Positions 51,320-63,042 are shown, numbered from the stretch's first letter. The stretch is DNA of 64,000 nucleotides from Heliomicrobium modesticaldum Ice1 (GCF_000019165.1 NC_010337.2:1727001-1791000); one strand, 5' to 3'. Program-made: numbers and translations. The notes: generated by a model not told the origin, from the sequence alone.

Positions 51320-51805
51320 TTACTCTCCGCTGCTCCCGCCGCCGCCCTGGCCGGCCTCCTTGTCGCCGCCTTTGCTGCCCTCTTGGCTTTTGGCTGCTGC
51401 CTGGATCTTTTTCTTGATCTCCGGATCGTCCATGCTTTCTTTGACGGTTTCCTTGATGGACTTGCGGATCTCTTTTTCCTTCATGACCAGGGCCAGGTTC
51501 TCTTGAAACTTGGCGTCGCGGAGCATCTCCTGAAGCGTCTTCTGGAACTTCGGATCCTGGGAGAGCACCATGGCCTGAAATTCCGGGTCGCGGATCATAC
51601 GGGCCAGCCTTTGCTGGTATTCATCGGTCTTGATGATGTCGATCATCATCGTCTTCATATCCTGATAATCGGGCTTCTCCTTGCTTTGTTGCCCCTGCCC
51701 CTGCTGCGGCGACTGTGTTTCCGCCGGGCGGCGCTGGGGGGAACAAGAGGCGATCCCGGTGGTGAGCAAAAAGGCGATGATCAGTAACCAGAGTAATCGC
51801 TGCAT
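51320..51805 (-). CDS. gerD: GerD-like spore germination lipoprotein
   Basis: 161 aa from ATG 51805 (AAAGGGGCGAGG upstream). Lipoprotein signal MQRLLWLLIIAFLLTTGIAS then Cys, a Pro/Gln-rich spacer, and the GerD helical core with repeated units: DYQDMKTMMIDIIKTDEYQQ, RMIRDPEFQAMVLSQDPKFQ, LQEMLRDAKFQENLALVM. The C-terminus is Gly/Ser rich. GerD organises germinant receptors in the spore inner membrane. The assignment rests on the repeated xDPxFQ pattern and the lipobox. Confidence 0.85.
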   Translation of the reverse strand: MQRLLWLLIIAFLLTTGIASCSPQRRPAETQSPQQGQGQQSKEKPDYQDMKTMMIDIIKTDEYQQRLARMIRDPEFQAMVLSQDPKFQKTLQEMLRDAKFQENLALVMKEKEIRKSIKETVKESMDDPEIKKKIQAAAKSQEGSKGGDKEAGQGGGGSSGE

Positions 51806-51846
51806 GCCCTCGCCCCTTTCTGCGGTCACCACTAGATTCCCTCAAT

Positions 51847-54993: not shown

Positions 54994-55024
54994 GGGAAGA
55001 GCAGTCAGGTATTACCAATAAAAA

Positions 55025-55053
55025 GAGGCGACCTTTGCGTCGCCTCTTTTTTT
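55025..55053 (+). terminator. terminator after thrS
   Basis: GAGGCGAC/GTCGCCTC with flanking A/T pairs and a 7-T tail; also usable from the other side. Confidence 0.95.
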
Positions 55054-55101: not shown

Positions 55102-55545
55102 CTACTTGGTGACGCTGTGACCGCAGTTGGGGCAGGTCTTTTCTTTTTTCGGGATTTTGGAGAGGGCCTTCTGGACGGCTTCTACATGGTAGGTGGGCGT
55201 CGTCACGACAGGCGGCGGGGGGGCCGGCACCGGGGTAACCGTGACGGGAACAGGCGGAGCGGGCGTTTTGGTCACCGTAACCGGAGCTGCTGGTGTTCCC
55301 GGCTTGGTGACAGTGACTGGCGCAGCGGGAACCGCAGGGTGGGTCCTTCTTGCCGCCGCCGGGTCGGTCGGGAAGTTGATTTTCCCGATGATGTCAAAGG
55401 CCTTATCGGGGATTTTGATGCCCATGTTGACGATCATATCCCGGACGGCGTCGGCAACGATTTCTACCCTGTTTTCGGCATCTTTGGCTTTTGTCATTTT
55501 TTCCCTGATCTGCTTCATCGCTTCTTCCATTTTTTTGGGGTCCAC
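55102..55545 (-). CDS. small protein with Thr/Val/Pro repeats and a C-terminal CxxC
   Basis: 147 aa from GTG 55545, which has AAAGGAGA 7 bases upstream; ATG 55581 opens the frame but has no ribosome site. Helical N-terminal half (MEEAMKQIREKMTKAKDAEN, VADAVRDMIVNMGIKIPDKA, FDIIGKINFP), then a low-complexity segment with repeated PVTVTKPGTPAAPVTVTK units, then HVEAVQKALSKIPKKEK and CPNCGHS, half a zinc ribbon. Function unknown. It lies 111 bases downstream of the seven-gene operon on the same strand and may or may not belong to it. Confidence 0.6.
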   Translation of the reverse strand: MDPKKMEEAMKQIREKMTKAKDAENRVEIVADAVRDMIVNMGIKIPDKAFDIIGKINFPTDPAAARRTHPAVPAAPVTVTKPGTPAAPVTVTKTPAPPVPVTVTPVPAPPPPVVTTPTYHVEAVQKALSKIPKKEKTCPNCGHSVTK

Positions 55546-55656
55546 CGCAATCTCTCCTTTGAAGTTATTGGAGTTCATCAAGCCGGTTGTAAACGCTGAA
55601 GCACTCCATTATCAGGGTATTCTTCAAGGAAAATATTGCCACTCGTTGCACGCTGT

Positions 55657-56913
55657 TCATACCTTGCTTGAGCGAAGGTAAGTGCCCGCGCTCATCTCGT
55701 CGGACGAATAGATGTAACGAGGCTTGCCGACAATGCCGACGCGGAGCAGTTCCTGGCGGTCGTACAGTGTTCCTTTGGGTACGAGATCGACGGTCACGGG
55801 GAAAGGGTACTCCCGGGCCAGCGCATCGATGAGATGGGTCGGCAAACTGTCAACAGGCGGTTCGGTCTCAACGACGAAGCGCAAGCCCGGCGGTTCGACG
55901 CCGACGACCCAGAAACGGCGGCAGGGGAGGCGGTCGACCAGCCCGTCAAGATCCCATAGATCGAGGACCCTATCCCCGATGGTCACTGTATGGCCTTTGC
56001 GGCCCCGGACCTCGAGGGTGGCGTCATGGCCGCAAGGACAATGGGCCGGGATCAGGCGGACACGATCCTCGGTGACATAGCGGACGACCGGTGTGGCTTT
56101 GTCGGTGATGGTGGTGACGACGAGGATGCCTGTTTCGCCGGGCGGTGCCTCACGAGTGAGGTCCTCTTGCCAGACTTCAAATATGAAGTAATCCTCCAGG
56201 GGATGAAGCGTCCCGCAGCGACAAGCGGCGCCGGCGGTGCCGATCTCGGTCATCCCATAGAGCGTGAAGACAGGGACGCCCCAGATGTCCTCCAATAAGC
56301 GCCGCTTGCCGGGGGGGATGGGTTCCCCGCCAAGGAGCAGCGCCCGCAGGTGAGGAAAGTCTCGGTCAGGCCGGAATCCCAACAACTCCGCCGTCTCCGC
56401 CAACAGCAGCGCTTGCAACGGCAGACCAGCCAAAACGGTCACCTGCAGTTTGCCCATCAGTTCGATAACCCGGGGAAAGGGGCTGACGGCGGAACGGGAG
56501 CTGGCGGCGATCACGGCAGCCCCCCGCTCTTGGGCTGCTCGGTGGACGGCATGGGCGATCATGGAGATGGCGTAAGGAAAGCGAATGAGGACGGTGTCGT
56601 CCGGTCGAAAGCCGATACCGCAAGCGTTGACCTGGTCGGCGTTGTCTCGCAGGTCGCCCCGGTGAAACCAGGTGGAGGCCGGCGTTCCCGTCGTGCCGAA
56701 GGATTCATGGTATTGCAGGACCTCGGCTTGGGGCACGCAGAGCATGCCGAAGGGCGAATGGCGGATCAAATCCGCTTTGGTCATGAAGGGGATGCTCTTT
56801 AATTCCTCCAGTGAAGCAAGCGGTTTTTCCGGCAAACGGTCCTTGAAGAAAGGGGCCTGGCGGTAGCGGTTGAAGGCGGCGTTCAAGGCCTTCAGCCGTT
56901 CTTCCGAGGTCAT
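55657..56913 (-). CDS. PaaK-type adenylate-forming ligase, second copy
   Basis: 418 aa. Phenylacetate-CoA ligase-like: FMTKADLIRHSPFGMLCV, the phosphate-binding loop HESFGTTGTPAST, GIGFRPDDTVLIRFPYAIS, LLGGEPIPPGKRRLLEDIWG, the YGMTEIG motif and VVRYVTEDRVRLIPAHCPCG. Such enzymes activate aromatic acids as acyl-AMP and usually as CoA thioesters. It overlaps the amidohydrolase upstream by 4 bases and is the last gene of the compact operon. The partner PaaK-type gene in the operon is only a distant paralogue, so they may take different substrates. Confidence 0.85.
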   Translation of the reverse strand: MTSEERLKALNAAFNRYRQAPFFKDRLPEKPLASLEELKSIPFMTKADLIRHSPFGMLCVPQAEVLQYHESFGTTGTPASTWFHRGDLRDNADQVNACGIGFRPDDTVLIRFPYAISMIAHAVHRAAQERGAAVIAASSRSAVSPFPRVIELMGKLQVTVLAGLPLQALLLAETAELLGFRPDRDFPHLRALLLGGEPIPPGKRRLLEDIWGVPVFTLYGMTEIGTAGAACRCGTLHPLEDYFIFEVWQEDLTREAPPGETGILVVTTITDKATPVVRYVTEDRVRLIPAHCPCGHDATLEVRGRKGHTVTIGDRVLDLWDLDGLVDRLPCRRFWVVGVEPPGLRFVVETEPPVDSLPTHLIDALAREYPFPVTVDLVPKGTLYDRQELLRVGIVGKPRYIYSSDEMSAGTYLRSSKV

Positions 56914-57689
56914 GGGGCGTCGCCCCCGGTAAGCACCATGCCGGTGAGTTGGGCGATGTTTTTGCTGAGCACCCTGTCCAGGTCGCCGGCTTTCAATCCG
57001 AGGAGGAGGATTTTGGCCAGTTCTGCCTTCGGGTGAGAGAGGGGGAATTCAGAGCCGAAGATGACCTTGGAGGGGCCGGCCCGGCGGACTGACTCTTTGA
57101 TGTGCAGGAAGCTGCCTGTCGATGTTTCTAAGAAGAAGTTGTCGTATGTGACGGCAGCTTCCAAACCTTCCTGATCGGCTGGCCCGAATCCCATATGGCC
57201 GAGGATGAAGTTCACCTTGGGAAAGCGGCGAGAAAGGGAGACAAACTTAGCCGTCGATGCGCCGGGACTGAAGACCGTATGGGTGTAGACAGGGACGCCG
57301 AAGTCTCCGCAGATTTCTGTCAGTTCAGCGATGCCTTTGCTGGCGAAGGAGAACTGGTGGCTCATCGGCGACAGCTTCAACCCTCGGAAGCCGGCCTTCA
57401 GAAGGTTTTCTAACGTTTCAGGGCCCTTGGGGTCGTGGGGATCGATGCAGGCAAAGCCGGTCATCTTCCCGCTGGAAAGGGAGCAGGCGGTGGAAACATA
57501 GGTGTTGTCAGGGACAGGCTTTTCCGGCTTCGCCCGACCGGTGATGTAGTCGGTCATCCGGCGCACATCCATCATCCCGCCGGGCACCACGACGGCCCGT
57601 TCAATCCCAGCTTCCCGCAACTGTGCCTGATAGAGGTCGTTGTTGCCGTACTCGGTGTCAGACAGGTGGGCATGGGCGTCGATGATCAT
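56910..57689 (-). CDS. amidohydrolase-2 superfamily protein
   Basis: 259 aa TIM barrel. Metal site HxH at the start (MIIDAHAHLSD), then GFACIDPHDPKGPETLENLL, GFRGLKLSPMSHQFSF, VPVYTHTVFSPGAS, FILGHMGFG and a late FGSEFPLSHPKAEL where an Asp is more usual. It overlaps both neighbours by 4 bases. In known benzoxazole pathways an amidohydrolase-superfamily enzyme forms the ring from a CoA-activated aminophenol acid. The context here (two PaaK-type ligases, GriI/GriH-like pair) supports that role by analogy; plain decarboxylase or hydrolase activity is the alternative. Confidence 0.8.
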   Translation of the reverse strand: MIIDAHAHLSDTEYGNNDLYQAQLREAGIERAVVVPGGMMDVRRMTDYITGRAKPEKPVPDNTYVSTACSLSSGKMTGFACIDPHDPKGPETLENLLKAGFRGLKLSPMSHQFSFASKGIAELTEICGDFGVPVYTHTVFSPGASTAKFVSLSRRFPKVNFILGHMGFGPADQEGLEAAVTYDNFFLETSTGSFLHIKESVRRAGPSKVIFGSEFPLSHPKAELAKILLLGLKAGDLDRVLSKNIAQLTGMVLTGGDAP

Positions 57690-59023
57690 GGCGCAGCCTC
57701 CTCCCGGACAACGCGGACCGTCTTGCCGCGGGGGCGGGGAATGGCGTCGACGATCTCCACGGCACAGGGCACGCCGACAGCGTATTCCATTTTGCTGGAT
57801 AGCTTGTCGGCCAGTTCCGCTGTGGCGGTCACCTTCGGTGCTAACTCAGTACGGATCTTCAAGCGGTCATTGTCTCCCTTTTTGACGATAAACTGGTACC
57901 AGTTGCCCACCTCGGGCTGGCGCATCAAAAACTCCTCCAGGTAGAAGGGGGAGAAGTCGACGCCGTTGATCCGGATCTGATCGCCCTGTCGGCCTCGCAG
58001 GTGCAGAAGGGGCAATGGTACGCCGCAAGGACAGGGATCAGGGTCGAAATAGCCCAGATCCTGCGTGCGGTAGCGGATCAGAGGCGCGTCGCGGCGGGTG
58101 AGGCAGGTGACGACGATCTCGCCGACCTCTAAGGGTTCCAAGGGTGTACCTGTCTTCGGGTCCACCACCTCCAGGATGACGTGGCTTTCCGTGACATGAT
58201 AGCCCCGGTGTTCGTCGCATTCGATGCCGACGACACCTCCCTCAAGGGTGCCGTAGTACATATTGGCCCGCGTTCCCCAGAGTTTTTCCACCCGTTCCCG
58301 GAAGGCCGGGGAGGAGCCTTCGCCGGTCAACCACATTTTTTTCCAAGGCAGGTCTTTCAGGTCGAACCCTTCCTTTAAAGCCGTTTCGTGCAGTGTCACA
58401 GCGTAGGAAGGGGTGGTAATGGCGCAGTTGGGCTGCAGGTCGCGGATCATCTGCACCGTCTTTTCCGGCGTCGAATAGGCGCCGCCTTTGCCGGCGGTGA
58501 GGACGGTGGCGCCGCAGCTGTTGATGAAGGATTTGTGGAAGGCCAGACCGGCGGAACTCATCTCGTAGGGCAGGGCATTGAGCACCATGTCACCGCGTCC
58601 GACGGGCACAAGAACGGGGAACCCCGGCGCCAGGTCGTGCATGTAATAGTCGGCCCAGGTGTGCAGCACGTAGATCGGCTTACCGCCTGTCGTTCCCGTA
58701 GAGACGTGGATGATGCTGACATCGGCTTTGTCACAGGCGAGGAAGCGCCAGGGATCCTGCCGGAGGTCGTCTTTTGTCGTAAAGGGTAGTTTGGCAAGGT
58801 CAGCGCGTTCCTGGATATCGTCCGGTCGGACGCCGGCTTGGCGGAACTGCTCCTGATAAAAGGGCGATTTGGCATGGGCGATGGCGACGATCTCCTTGAG
58901 CGCTTCTGTCTGATAGGCCGCCAGCCGTTCCGGGGGCATGGCGTCGGAGGCTTCCCGGAAGTAGCGACGGAACAGGTCGGGTGTTCGGGCCGCCCGGATG
59001 CGGTCTTCAAAAGCCAGCGTCAT
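57686..59023 (-). CDS. PaaK-type adenylate-forming ligase, first copy
   Basis: 445 aa from ATG 59023 (GAGGTGACGCC upstream); the open frame runs back to 59146. Family motifs: PFTTKDDLRQDPWRFLACDK, HVSTGTTGGKPIYV, ALPYEMSSAGLAFHKSFINS, WLTGEGSSPAFRERVEKLWG, MYYGTLEGGVVGIECDEHRG, APLIRYRTQDLGYFDPDPCP and the C-terminal IPRPRGKTVRVV with its catalytic Lys. It most likely activates an aromatic acid with ATP and CoA. It overlaps the upstream TPR-like gene by 4 bases and the downstream amidohydrolase by 4. Confidence 0.88.
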   Translation of the reverse strand: MTLAFEDRIRAARTPDLFRRYFREASDAMPPERLAAYQTEALKEIVAIAHAKSPFYQEQFRQAGVRPDDIQERADLAKLPFTTKDDLRQDPWRFLACDKADVSIIHVSTGTTGGKPIYVLHTWADYYMHDLAPGFPVLVPVGRGDMVLNALPYEMSSAGLAFHKSFINSCGATVLTAGKGGAYSTPEKTVQMIRDLQPNCAITTPSYAVTLHETALKEGFDLKDLPWKKMWLTGEGSSPAFRERVEKLWGTRANMYYGTLEGGVVGIECDEHRGYHVTESHVILEVVDPKTGTPLEPLEVGEIVVTCLTRRDAPLIRYRTQDLGYFDPDPCPCGVPLPLLHLRGRQGDQIRINGVDFSPFYLEEFLMRQPEVGNWYQFIVKKGDNDRLKIRTELAPKVTATAELADKLSSKMEYAVGVPCAVEIVDAIPRPRGKTVRVVREEAAP

Positions 59024-60270
59024 GGCGTCACCTCTTCTCGAACCGAAGCAGGAATGCTGTCGCAGTAGGGGGAGTCGGGGCAATCGGCAGCTAAACGCGC
59101 CCAGATCTTTTTCGCTTCGAAGTCGTTGGTGGAACGGCGGTAGCACTCGCCGAGATGGTGCAGTAGGCGCGCGTATTCCTCTTTCGTCAGCAGCGCCGGA
59201 TCTTTTTCATAGGCCTCCAGGACGAAACGGAAATCCTGGATGGCTGTCTGGGCCGTATGGAAAAAAGCCTCCGGAAGGGAGTAGGCCAGATAGGCTCGCA
59301 GCAGACGGATGCGCGGGTTTTCAGGATCCTTTTCCTTCGCCTCCCGCAGGGCTTTCATCGCCCGGATGGCGCAGCCAAAGAGGGCATTCGGTTCGACAGC
59401 ATCTTTTTCGATCAGCGCTGTCGCGGAGGCATAGTAGGCCAGGGCGAGGGCATCGTCCGGGTCCGTTTCATGGGCTTTTTTCAGCAGTTCCTTGGCAACG
59501 CGGGCGGCGCCCCGATCGCCGGCGGCGCCGGCTTCGAAGAGCCGGACCCCCTCGCGGAGCAGATCCGCCTTTTCTGTCAGGGCGAGCAGTGCAGTCTCCT
59601 GATCGGCTGGGAAATAGCCCCGCGCCCGTTCGACAGCGCCTGTATAGTCCCCGCCGACGTCAAGGGCAAGGAGGCGGTTCCAGACCTCATCGGCCTGTTC
59701 TGCCATGCCAAGGCGCTGGTAGGCGCAGCCGAGGTCGAAGAGGATCTGATTGCGCTTTTTTGGAGGCAGGGCCAAGCGGCCCTCGTCATAAGCGGCCAGG
59801 ATCGCCTCGAAGTCTCCGATGGCCGTCGAGGTGCGCCGGAAGAAGCCCTCGTGGAGGCGGAAGCTCTGGTAGGCCCGTAACAGGCGGATCTCCAGATCAT
59901 CGGGTCGGTTTTCCACGGCCTGGTCGAGGAGTTTGATTGCCGGGATGGCGTTTTTGAACATGCTGTAGGAGTCGTCGACGACGCTTCCCAAGAGGGATTG
60001 GCAATCGGCAAAATAGGCGGCGACGCGGTCATCGGCGGGATGGCGGTTGCGCAGCTGTTCAAAATAGGTCAAGGCCTGCTGGATGGCCTCCCGGTTTCCG
60101 CTCATTGCTAGGCTGTGCAGACGGATGCCTTCAGCGATGTCTTCGTCAGAGGCAGGCCGGTGGGGCGCAGGCACAAGGGTGATTTGTCGCGCCTGCGAAC
60201 GCCGGGGTTCTTCCCGCAGTCCTGACCAGGCGTTGGCGCGGGTGGAAGTAAACCGTGATGATGAAGCCAT
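59020..60270 (-). CDS. TPR-like protein with internal duplication
   Basis: 416 aa, all helical, soluble. TPR-style pairs recur, and one longer signature appears twice: IRLLRAYQSFRLHEGFFRRT (then TAIGDFEAIL) near residue 125 and IRLLRAYLAYSLPEAFFHTA (then TAIQDFRFVL) near 325. Each is followed by a second pair (LFDLGCAYQRLGMAEQADEV; LLHHLGECYRRSTNDFEAKK). So the protein is two copies of a roughly 200-residue module. The shorter upstream neighbour carries the same module once. No catalytic residues are evident; a scaffold or carrier-like partner for the pathway enzymes is inference. Confidence 0.65.
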   Translation of the reverse strand: MASSSRFTSTRANAWSGLREEPRRSQARQITLVPAPHRPASDEDIAEGIRLHSLAMSGNREAIQQALTYFEQLRNRHPADDRVAAYFADCQSLLGSVVDDSYSMFKNAIPAIKLLDQAVENRPDDLEIRLLRAYQSFRLHEGFFRRTSTAIGDFEAILAAYDEGRLALPPKKRNQILFDLGCAYQRLGMAEQADEVWNRLLALDVGGDYTGAVERARGYFPADQETALLALTEKADLLREGVRLFEAGAAGDRGAARVAKELLKKAHETDPDDALALAYYASATALIEKDAVEPNALFGCAIRAMKALREAKEKDPENPRIRLLRAYLAYSLPEAFFHTAQTAIQDFRFVLEAYEKDPALLTKEEYARLLHHLGECYRRSTNDFEAKKIWARLAADCPDSPYCDSIPASVREEVTP

Positions 60271-60290
60271 GGGATATACGACCTCCCGGT

Positions 60291-60959
60291 TTAACCGAAT
60301 TGGGGAACAAAACCCTCTTGTTCGACGAGGGCGCGATATTGGGGGTCTCTGGCGAGGGTGAGCAGTTTGGTCCAGGCCGCTTTTGCTTCATGCATCAGAT
60401 GGATGTTCTTATAGGCCACACCGAGCTGATAGAGGATGCGCCAGTAAAAATCGGCGGCGAAGAGGCGATTGTCCTGTTCATAGCGGGAGATGAGGTAGTG
60501 GAAGTCTTCGATGGCTGTGCGGCTGCGGTGGAAGAATTGCTCTGGCAGGCGGAAACAGACTTGGCCGCGGAGGATGCGCGCCTGGATCAGGTCGGGATGG
60601 GCTCTGACCACCTTATCTAATGTCTTCAGGCCTTCCAGCGCCTTGGCGAAGCGCTCTGAGGGGTCCACGGCGTCGCGGCCCAGGAGGCAGACGACACTGC
60701 CATAGTAGGCCTCCACCAGTGGGGTGGGTTTGGTCTGACGAAGTTTGCTGAGCAGCTCATGGGCTTTAAGAACGGCTTGCTTGTCACCGTCGATGCCGGC
60801 GTCATGAAGGGCGACCGCCTTGCGGAGTTCAAAAGGTTCTTCAAGGGGCGATGCGGTCGCCGGCGAATTCGGTGATACAGCCGGCTTTATGGGAAGGGTG
60901 ACGGTGATACCCGACCAGGAGCGGCTACCCGGTTGGGAAGAGGGCTTGTTTTGACTCAT
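60291..60959 (-). CDS. TPR-like protein, single module
   Basis: 222 aa. After a Ser/Pro-rich start (about 40 residues) it is helical and carries one copy of the module in the next gene: ARILRGQVCFRLPEQFFHRS (then TAIEDFHYLI) followed by LYQLGVAYKNIHLMHEAKAA. It lies 20 bases upstream of the longer relative and 30 bases downstream of the aldolase gene, so it is part of the operon. Function unknown; the shared module suggests the two proteins pair or act on the same partner. Confidence 0.65.
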   Translation of the reverse strand: MSQNKPSSQPGSRSWSGITVTLPIKPAVSPNSPATASPLEEPFELRKAVALHDAGIDGDKQAVLKAHELLSKLRQTKPTPLVEAYYGSVVCLLGRDAVDPSERFAKALEGLKTLDKVVRAHPDLIQARILRGQVCFRLPEQFFHRSRTAIEDFHYLISRYEQDNRLFAADFYWRILYQLGVAYKNIHLMHEAKAAWTKLLTLARDPQYRALVEQEGFVPQFG

Positions 60960-60989
60960 GGTTTCATTCCTCCCGGTTTGTAGGAAGTG

Positions 60990-61793
60990 CTAGCCGTCAA
61001 CAGAGGATGCCAGTTCCGCCAGTTGGGACGCGTCCACCTTTCTGTCGAGGATGCGCCGGATGGCGGCGGTCAGCCGTTGTGGCCGGGCATGTTGAAAGAT
61101 GTTTCGCCCGATGGCGACGCCGAGGCTGCCGGCCTGCTGGGCTGCGTAGACCATGTTGAGCAGTTCGCCGGTGCTGTTTGTTTTGGCGCCGCCGGCGATG
61201 ATGACGGGGATGTCGACGCCGCCGGTCACCTGCCTGAAGCTCTCCGGCGTTCCCGTGTAATTGACCTTGACGATGTCAGCGCCCAATTCTTCGGCGACAC
61301 GAGCGGCATGGGCGACCCTTACCGGGTCGTACTCGTTGGCTTGATTGCCGTCGCGGACGTACATCATGGCCAATAGGGGCATGCCCCAGAGTTCACAGGC
61401 GTCGGCTATCTGGCCCAGGTCTTCGAGCATCGCATTTTCGGCGGCGCCGCCGAGGTTAACATGGACGGAGACGGCGGTCGCCCCGAGCCGGACGGCATGC
61501 TCCACCGAAGAGACCAATTCCTTGCGGTTCGGTTCCGGCGAGAGGGTCGTCGAGGCAGACAGGTGAACGATCAGGTCGCACTGTCTTGTCGAGAGCACGC
61601 CTGCGATCTGCCGGGCCAGTCCCTTGTGGACGATGACGGCGTCAGCGCCGCCGTCTGCCACAGCTTTCACCATCGGGCGGATCTCAGTCAATCCAGCGAC
61701 GGGACCGAGGGAGACGCCGTGATCGAGCGGAACGGCGAGCAATTGTCCGGAGGGCGCGAAGAGCCGGTTCAGGCGAATCTCTTTTCCAGTCAT
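60990..61793 (-). CDS. class I aldolase of the ADH-synthase/GriI family
   Basis: 267 aa. The family condenses a three-carbon sugar phosphate with aspartate semialdehyde: archaeal ADH synthase leads to shikimate, and actinobacterial GriI to 3-amino-4-hydroxybenzoate. Seen: LLAVPLDHGVSLGPVAGL, GADAVIVHKGLAR, LIVHLSASTTLSPEPN, AVSVHVNLGGAAENAMLEDL, LLAMMYVRDG, the Schiff-base lysine in GADIVKVNYTGTPESF, and IAGGAKTNS...GVAIGRNIFQH. It pairs with the next gene upstream, the matching cyclase. Family firm; exact donor undecided. Confidence 0.9.
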   Translation of the reverse strand: MTGKEIRLNRLFAPSGQLLAVPLDHGVSLGPVAGLTEIRPMVKAVADGGADAVIVHKGLARQIAGVLSTRQCDLIVHLSASTTLSPEPNRKELVSSVEHAVRLGATAVSVHVNLGGAAENAMLEDLGQIADACELWGMPLLAMMYVRDGNQANEYDPVRVAHAARVAEELGADIVKVNYTGTPESFRQVTGGVDIPVIIAGGAKTNSTGELLNMVYAAQQAGSLGVAIGRNIFQHARPQRLTAAIRRILDRKVDASQLAELASSVDG

Positions 61794-61808
61794 GGCTGGC
61801 GCCGCCTC

Positions 61809-62951
61809 CTAGCTTTCGATGATCTTTTCATCCACTTTGATGCCCACATGCCTTCCCGGCGCGCAGACATAGGCCAGGAGTTGGTCGCCCGGCTGGACGG
61901 TGGTGGCATTGCGCGGTTCTCCATTGGCGCCCATGACGCGGATGTGCCAGTCGTCCTGAACGATCACGTTCAAGTCGATGCCATCGGCCACCCCTTTGAT
62001 CAGGAGCAGCGGCCGCACCTCTGTCTTCACCCGACCGACGATGACCGGTCGCGTTTTTCCTTTGGTGTTGACGCAAAGGACAGCCGTGCCGGCCCGCAGG
62101 TCTGTCAGGTAGTCGGTGGCGTTGCCGGGGCGCCAGACGTAGGAGTGGACGGCGCCGGCGTTCACCCGGAAGGGCCGCAGGTTCATATAGGGCAGGTAGT
62201 GCGTCTCCGAACAGACAAAAATGCCGCCTGAAGAAGTGGAGCCGATGATCATCCCTTCATCGCGGGTCATGATATCTGTCGTATCGATACAGGAACGCAA
62301 GCCCATCCCGATGTGGCTGACCTCCGTCACCGTCAAGGGATGCAGTTGCAGCGGCTCGGCGCCTCGGCGGGACAGAAAAGCCTTCAGCTCGATGATTTCG
62401 TTCATATCGTCCGTGGACAGCAGGACGCCGTCGCTGCCTTGTTCCAGGACGCCGAAAGCGACCTCCATCGCTTCTACACTCTTCTCCGCTTTGAGCAGCA
62501 CCGTCTTGCTCTTTTGCAGGCGGGCGATGATCAACTCCAGAGGGATGTTTGTGGGCAGATCGAAGTCGACGACGGCGTAATCATGGCTGACTGCCCTGCG
62601 GCTGGCTTCCTCTAAATCGTCCTGGCCGCCTTCGATGAAAAGAGAGATGCAGGTGCTAAACCCCTTTTCCCGGGCTGCATCCAACAGCGCGGGAACGCTG
62701 GAAAGGACGATATCCCCTTCAGACAGGGCGTCAAGGTCGGAGGGCTCCTTGATTTCCGTAATCAGAATGGTTTTGAGCGGGAAATGCCCATCCCGCCGCT
62801 GCGCTGGCGTGACGACAACATGTTGAAGGGGGGAGTTGTCGATCAACCCCCAGATGTCTCTGCGATCCAAAGGCACAGGGCGTCCGTCAAACCAGACCTC
62901 CCGCGTAACGGCGCCAGTTCCAATCCCACTAGCCACGAACACCAACTCCAT
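61809..62951 (-). CDS. 3-dehydroquinate synthase II / GriH-type cyclase
   Basis: 380 aa. The archaeal-type DHQ synthase II family, distinct from ordinary AroB, cyclises the product of the ADH-synthase-type aldolase; in Streptomyces the homologue GriH makes 3-amino-4-hydroxybenzoate. Family stretches: VVDFDLPTNIPLELIIARLQ, KAEKSVEAMEVAFGVLEQGS, DGVLLSTDDMNEI, VTEVSHIGMGLRSCIDTTDI, GMIIGSTSSGGIFVCSETHY and FRVNAGAVHSYV. First gene of the operon; AAGGA is close to the ATG, so a GTG or TTG a few codons in could be used. Confidence 0.9.
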   Translation of the reverse strand: MELVFVASGIGTGAVTREVWFDGRPVPLDRRDIWGLIDNSPLQHVVVTPAQRRDGHFPLKTILITEIKEPSDLDALSEGDIVLSSVPALLDAAREKGFSTCISLFIEGGQDDLEEASRRAVSHDYAVVDFDLPTNIPLELIIARLQKSKTVLLKAEKSVEAMEVAFGVLEQGSDGVLLSTDDMNEIIELKAFLSRRGAEPLQLHPLTVTEVSHIGMGLRSCIDTTDIMTRDEGMIIGSTSSGGIFVCSETHYLPYMNLRPFRVNAGAVHSYVWRPGNATDYLTDLRAGTAVLCVNTKGKTRPVIVGRVKTEVRPLLLIKGVADGIDLNVIVQDDWHIRVMGANGEPRNATTVQPGDQLLAYVCAPGRHVGIKVDEKIIES

Positions 62952-63042
62952 ATCCTTGAATTCCGCTGCCGAGAAATCTCCCGGCTATTTGAAGTCTATT
63001 CTATGGAAAATTATGGTGTGACGAGAAAAGGGACGCTATAAC

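Follow-up and report, generated by a model that had tools for sequence, protein, structure and literature searches.

The window analysed here is a stretch of 64,000 nucleotides from Heliomicrobium modesticaldum Ice1 (NC_010337.2, 1727001-1791000), a photosynthetic, spore-forming anaerobe with a genome of 3,075,407 bp on a single contig. It contains an operon that encodes the enzyme types of closoxazole biosynthesis together with two tetratricopeptide repeat (TPR)-like proteins and a small helical peptide. Seven open reading frames (ORFs) run along the minus strand from 62951 down to 55657, an arrangement far beyond chance, and the gene set recurs across Bacillota. The first encodes a 380-residue protein of the dehydroquinate (DHQ) synthase II or 3-amino-4-hydroxybenzoate (3,4-AHBA) synthase type, similar to ClxB and GriH (61809-62951; Pfam DHQS, 3e-99). 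It is followed by a 267-residue aldolase of the ADH synthase type, similar to ClxE and GriI (60990-61793), and by the TPR pair: TPR2, with a single copy of a TPR-like domain of about 180 residues (222 residues; 60291-60959), and the helical-repeat protein TPR1, with several TPR matches in Pfam (416 residues; 59020-60270). A PaaK-type adenylate-forming ligase of 445 residues is a candidate for the ClxC role (57686-59023; Pfam AMP-binding and AMP-binding_C_2). The last two are a 259-residue amidohydrolase, a candidate cyclase of the ClxD type (56910-57689; Amidohydro_2, 2e-23), and a 418-residue aryl acid ligase of the ClxA/NatL2 type (55657-56913). Neighbouring genes do overlap by the four bases ATGA at 59020, 57686 and 56910. 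An earlier note on this DNA had assigned these families, order, strand and overlaps, all of which were borne out by ORF calls, Pfam and NCBIfam.

The extent given in that note, 55657-62951, holds for the seven genes and stops too early, since an eighth gene was overlooked. This gene (55102-55581, minus strand; 159 residues as listed) was recognized by an iterative hidden Markov model (HMM) as a member of a family of small helical peptides, and begins about 75 bases past the last ligase. A hairpin with a 12-bp stem and a 6-nt loop (55021-55050, minus strand; RNA fold -23.3 kcal/mol, z -5.87) then closes the transcript as a candidate operon terminator; the consensus terminator scan, whose rule demands a free T after the stem, left it unflagged. 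Because the same-strand gene and the strong hairpin follow the last ligase, the operon is treated as having eight genes. The neighbouring infC-like and thrS-like genes are encoded on the opposite strand.

Enzymes in common with closoxazole clusters

In the closoxazole route, ClxE and ClxB produce 3,4-AHBA, ClxA ligates two such units, ClxD closes the ring and ClxC adds a third unit (PMC12118335). The clusters concerned, clxA-E of Clostridium cavendishii and pfxA-E of Pyxidicoccus fallax (PMC12118335), share five enzyme types with the operon: an AHBA-synthase pair, two AMP ligases and an amidohydrolase. The operon adds the TPR pair and small peptides and has another gene order. The hosts of the operon and its relatives are spore-forming Bacillota, and their ligases are changed at donor and acceptor pocket residues. 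The earlier note had proposed an operon that makes an aminohydroxybenzoate, ligates it and cyclizes it. The enzyme set agrees with that proposal; a benzoxazole product stays conditional, and the ligase pocket is unlike that of ClxA.

Both genes of a dedicated 3,4-AHBA synthase pair (ClxB, ClxE) are present. The DHQS-type protein scores 250 bits with the NCBIfam model for BagC/FevH 3,4-AHBA synthase, under that model's cut-off, and the aldolase scores 315 bits with ADH_synth against a cut-off of 299, its best solved relative being MJ0400. The DHQS-type gene was found in seven of nine genomes of the order, and the proteins of Heliobacterium, Heliophilum and Heliorestis are 60-71% identical to that of the window. 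In the literature library searched, nothing relevant turned up on the DHQ synthase of H. modesticaldum.

The best PDB matches of the PaaK-type ligase are phenylacetate-CoA ligases. With its C-terminal domain it provides the second AMP-forming ligase corresponding to ClxC, an assignment made by enzyme type. For the last ligase, the best matches among solved structures are AjiA1 (1e-59), 9s3l (4e-58) and NatL2 (2e-56); it matches the BagE/FevW model at 225 bits (cut-off 800). We equate PDB 9s3l, to which it is 31% identical, with ClxA, since the ClxA residues that PMC12519233 names match the letters of 9s3l at those numbers. The window ligase retains the equivalents of ClxA Y219, T222, E223, D281 and K393. 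Among 30 ligases of the TPR-linked clade described below, E223, D281 and K393 are invariant, Y219 is kept in 29 and T222 in 25. The pocket is different: N226 is replaced by T, K140 by S and P120 by I in the window ligase, and across the same 30 proteins position 226 is T in 22, position 140 is S, A or G in all, and position 120 is I, V or A in 29. All three ClxA residues are kept by the ligase of one closoxazole-like locus (L055), and P120 and N226 by those of two further loci (L056 and L057). In ClxA, the mutations N226L and K140A shift which donors or acceptors are used, and K140A leads to longer oligoamides. Catalysis by the clade ligases thus looks intact, and with a pocket unlike that of ClxA the product need not be closoxazole and may differ from closoxazole A.

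The AlphaFold2 model of the amidohydrolase (predicted local distance difference test score, pLDDT, 91.3) adopts an Amidohydro_2 barrel whose closest match is 3cjp, followed by aromatic decarboxylases. Residues H6, H8, H137, H165 and E214 are conserved in 30 of 30 aligned amidohydrolases (the alignment, A1, numbers them one lower, its first codon being cut). The invariant E214 stands at the beta-8 position, where the family usually carries aspartate. Locus L057, from Anaerosporobacter, has the cluster order A-B-C-D-E, equal to clxABCDE, and comparison with it makes the window enzyme a candidate ClxD-type cyclase.

The nataxazole pathway is similar in its ClxA/NatL2-type ligase and in the sequence of ligation followed by ring closure by the amidohydrolase superfamily. 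It differs in that the operon's presumed cyclase is of the Amidohydro_2 type, and in that the substrate of NatL2 is 3-hydroxyanthranilate, not 3,4-AHBA. Homology to the NatAM-type cyclases, with which the earlier note had suggested a comparison, was rejected: the hits from profile and fold searches are 3cjp and decarboxylases of the Amidohydro_2 type, with no entry named NatAM among them. The enzyme belongs to the fold class of the aromatic decarboxylases. The grixazone, bagremycin and ferroverdin pathways (GriI/GriH, BagB/C, FevI/H, BagE/FevW) have the AHBA-synthase pair in common with the operon and a different end chemistry; they are not known to include an amidohydrolase cyclase.

TPR proteins and the small peptide family

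TPR1 is predicted to be all-helical (AlphaFold2 mean pLDDT 85.6), and its best PDB matches are TPR superhelices. TPR2 alone has no Pfam match; it groups with TPR1 homologues in an all-against-all comparison and is conserved with the cluster. A cluster scan of 84,980 species genomes yielded 53 loci. Their common order is TPR(s), PaaK-type ligase, amidohydrolase, ClxA-type ligase, DHQ, ADH. The gene set, whose conservation in order the earlier note had offered as a check, recurs across Bacillota; Heliobacteria place the DHQ-ADH pair in front. In an amidohydrolase tree, a quick one with several long branches, all TPR-bearing loci fall inside one Bacillota branch (SH-aLRT 97). Among the few members of this branch that lack a TPR gene are loci whose contigs are short or cut and one locus, L011, with no TPR gene in its 18 kb. 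Five TPR-less loci (L055-L059), closoxazole-like loci among them, lie outside it. On these comparative grounds the TPR genes form a conserved part of this clade's system. The earlier note had placed the TPR partners outside known pathways; they are indeed absent from closoxazole-like loci, yet conserved here. Searches of the same literature library for AHBA with TPR proteins or spores found nothing relevant.

Of 398 sampled Bacillota genomes, 22 have the cluster amidohydrolase, as do 18 of 270 genera; another sampling round built around Metabacillus returned mostly the same phylum set and provides no independent count. Large groups of recurrent neighbours on the opposite strand within the cluster were set aside as shadow ORFs. 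Three loci carry an Amidase-family gene between the PaaK-type ligase and the amidohydrolase (L029:8378-9781, L040:3602-5005, L051:4633-6030; Pfam 2e-101 for L029 and 7e-99 for L051). In Metabacillus bambusae a further amidohydrolase copy, less similar, lies outside the main cluster (G402:C34:335862-336611, E 9e-79).

The eighth gene belongs to a family that travels with these clusters. An iterative HMM seeded with four sequences collected 32 proteins in 25 loci, all adjoining the cluster, with non-seed members reaching E values down to 5e-13. The core, judged by eye to be two helices, spans about 45 residues and follows the pattern xAVxxfxxKIxxAxxxxNxxxxIQxAVxEMLxxLxI. The tails vary: that of the window protein is rich in Pro, Thr and Val with a C-terminal CxxC, and that of Heliobacterium chlorum is rich in Arg and Lys. 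Genome-wide searches of 15 genomes gave strong matches at the cluster only and one weak match elsewhere. By the same search, four TPR-less genomes and one cluster-less Heliorestis relative had no peptide match, and neither did one TPR-bearing genome (L047). In this sample, that genome apart, the peptides and the TPR genes are inherited together. Searches of the peptides and other small neighbours against Pfam and NCBIfam gave weak, chance-like matches and no curated family, so that the peptide family is, by sequence comparison, previously unlisted and new to the libraries searched. A role as TPR partner or product anchor is a guess. What appears new in the system is thus the TPR pair as one of its parts and the peptide family, the enzyme set itself being known from closoxazole.

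Further small proteins occur at other loci. H. chlorum and H. mobile carry two peptide-family proteins with Arg/Lys/His-rich tails and partly duplicated domains (L020:10918-13378), one of them inserted between the amidohydrolase and the ligase. ABC importers of solutes adjoin a number of clusters, of the NMT1 type at L011, L017, L022 and L106 and of the Liv type at L012, L016, L032, L106 and L107, a hint of uptake of an aromatic acid or of the product; some of these clusters have two PaaK-type ligases. Small proteins that resemble one another N-terminally and end in Lys-rich tails (PKYDPGQYYKGPWDGKKDDKK in L106, for example) recur near the importer-linked clusters, at L106:3630-4037, L022:7573-7902 and L011:13617-13934; those tested have no Pfam family.

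Promoters and a possible sporulation link

The motif CATANNNT, first noticed in Metabacillus and presumably the -10 core of mother-cell sigma factors, is found upstream of 28 of 35 operons, compared with 61 of 171 control regions. The extended form AC-N16/17-CATANNNT precedes 14 of the 35 operons and occurs in 12 of the 171 controls. No matches to sigma-E-like (ATA-N15-17-CATANNNT) or sigma-G-like patterns were found in the upstream regions. Two CATANNNT sites (CATAATTT, CATAGAAT; 62998-63015, minus strand) lie upstream of the first gene in the window and may be -10 elements of a sporulation sigma factor; they are weak taken alone, and the enrichment is clade-wide.

A second line of evidence comes from split loci. 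In Metabacillus crassostreae and M. litoralis the ligases are missing from the main locus and present at a second one, directly after two Coat_F genes and an unnamed 207-residue ORF (L105:5973-10037, L104:7866-11787), with SASP and SpoVIF genes nearby. The split ligase genes carry the block CTATYA-N26/27-CTATCAC-N16/17-CATANNNT, as do the main operons of nine Metabacillus-type loci. A shorter pattern of this block occurs only three and six times in two such genomes, two of the occurrences in each being at the pathway halves. The shared block shows that the two halves are under common control and by itself is no demonstration of sporulation control. SpoIVA is present in 22 of 22 carriers of the cluster and in 340 of the 398 sampled Bacillota (p about 0.03, kinship ignored). 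A sporulation role for the TPR-linked clusters is suggested. Elsewhere in the window, about 3 kb past the operon end, lies a gene for a GerD spore-germination core domain protein (51320-51832, minus strand).

The proposed pathway and its alternatives

The following pathway can be proposed. (i) The ADH-synthase/AHBA-synthase pair would convert aspartate semialdehyde and a C3 sugar phosphate to 3,4-AHBA. (ii) The ClxA-type ligase would adenylate 3,4-AHBA and couple it to another aminophenol acid through an ester or amide bond. (iii) The ClxD-type amidohydrolase would close the benzoxazole ring. (iv) The PaaK-type ligase may activate the resulting acid for further coupling, and the clade-wide change of the ligase pocket could lead to a product that differs from closoxazole A or is longer. 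(v) The two TPR proteins would serve as scaffold or chaperone; the small helical peptides, one to three per cluster, would bind the TPR proteins as partners or form an anchor that receives the aromatic product. (vi) Expression would take place in the mother cell, and the product would be located on or in the spore coat. That the operon makes, ligates and ring-closes 3,4-AHBA with the TPR proteins and peptides, sporulation being the likeliest setting, we consider an even proposition.

Several points weigh against it. The SpoIVA association is weak, because SpoIVA is common in Bacillota anyway (85%), and the Coat_F neighbourhood could be chance, because spore genes are common in Bacillaceae. The enrichment of CATANNNT is inflated by related Metabacillus loci. 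The sequence CATANNNTA, which we take to be the full sigma-K -10, is not enriched upstream (four of 35 operons, 27 of 171 controls). The upstream region in the window lacks the CTATCAC block despite its two CATANNNT sites. As for the chemistry, the ClxD-type label derives indirectly, from synteny and homology by way of L057, and the modelled fold belongs to a class that also contains aromatic decarboxylases.

The most specific form of the proposal is a mother-cell pathway to AHBA-derived amide or benzoxazole oligomers, which the TPR proteins and peptides anchor in the spore coat for structure or protection rather than as a secreted antibiotic. This form is tentative and more probably wrong than right. 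A secreted antibiotic or metal-binding metabolite of the ordinary closoxazole type, with the TPR proteins and peptides as regulators or accessories (for example a TPR sensor and a peptide signal) and no tie to sporulation, is a serious contender, if itself rather doubtful. It would use the same five enzymes, its patchy spread among Bacillota genomes is typical of secondary metabolism, and solute-importing ABC systems stand near several clusters. However, the clusters of the clade have no conserved exporter or resistance gene as a recurring neighbour; the peptides, inspected by eye across the clade, do not pair a conserved cleavage site with a variable mature part; and the split loci, with their linkage to coat genes and their common promoter block, point elsewhere.

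An amidohydrolase acting as decarboxylase or hydrolase, with 2-aminophenol-type or simple amide products and no benzoxazole, is unlikely. The nearest solved folds do include resorcylate, carboxyvanillate and dihydroxybenzoate decarboxylases, but the window enzyme is 46% identical to that of L057 and has the metal-site residues, including the unusual Glu214, in common with amidohydrolases of closoxazole-like clusters; the Pyxidicoccus homologue of ClxD has been demonstrated to cyclize (PMC12118335). We give little credence to a pathway that uses up or modifies an aminophenol or aromatic acid from the environment, with the ligases forming CoA esters for breakdown. The CoA-ligase relatives of the PaaK-type enzyme and the Liv-type and NMT1-type importers near some clusters would fit it; two dedicated AHBA-forming genes in the same operon, a last ligase of the ClxA/NatL2 type and the lack of recurring ring-reduction or ring-cleavage genes in the set would not. 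Finally, a supply of dehydroquinate for aromatic amino acids, which both families serve in archaea and to which the better score of the cyclase for the DHQ-synthase-II subfamily than for AHBA synthase might point, is barely credible and was rejected as the genome's shikimate entry, because aroB and two DAHP-synthase genes are present elsewhere and the pair is tightly linked to the ligases and amidohydrolase. The refuting condition that the earlier note had set, in a genome lacking aroB/aroG, thus does not apply.

Closoxazole-type clusters have two characterized producers and no clear natural role. In a whole branch of them, found across spore-forming Bacillota, the cluster comes with a TPR pair and a peptide family, and this clade offers ligases naturally altered at the pocket positions that were engineered in ClxA. 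Should the spore link be true, a small aromatic heterocycle would be serving to build or protect spores, a question that would be approachable in culturable Metabacillus.

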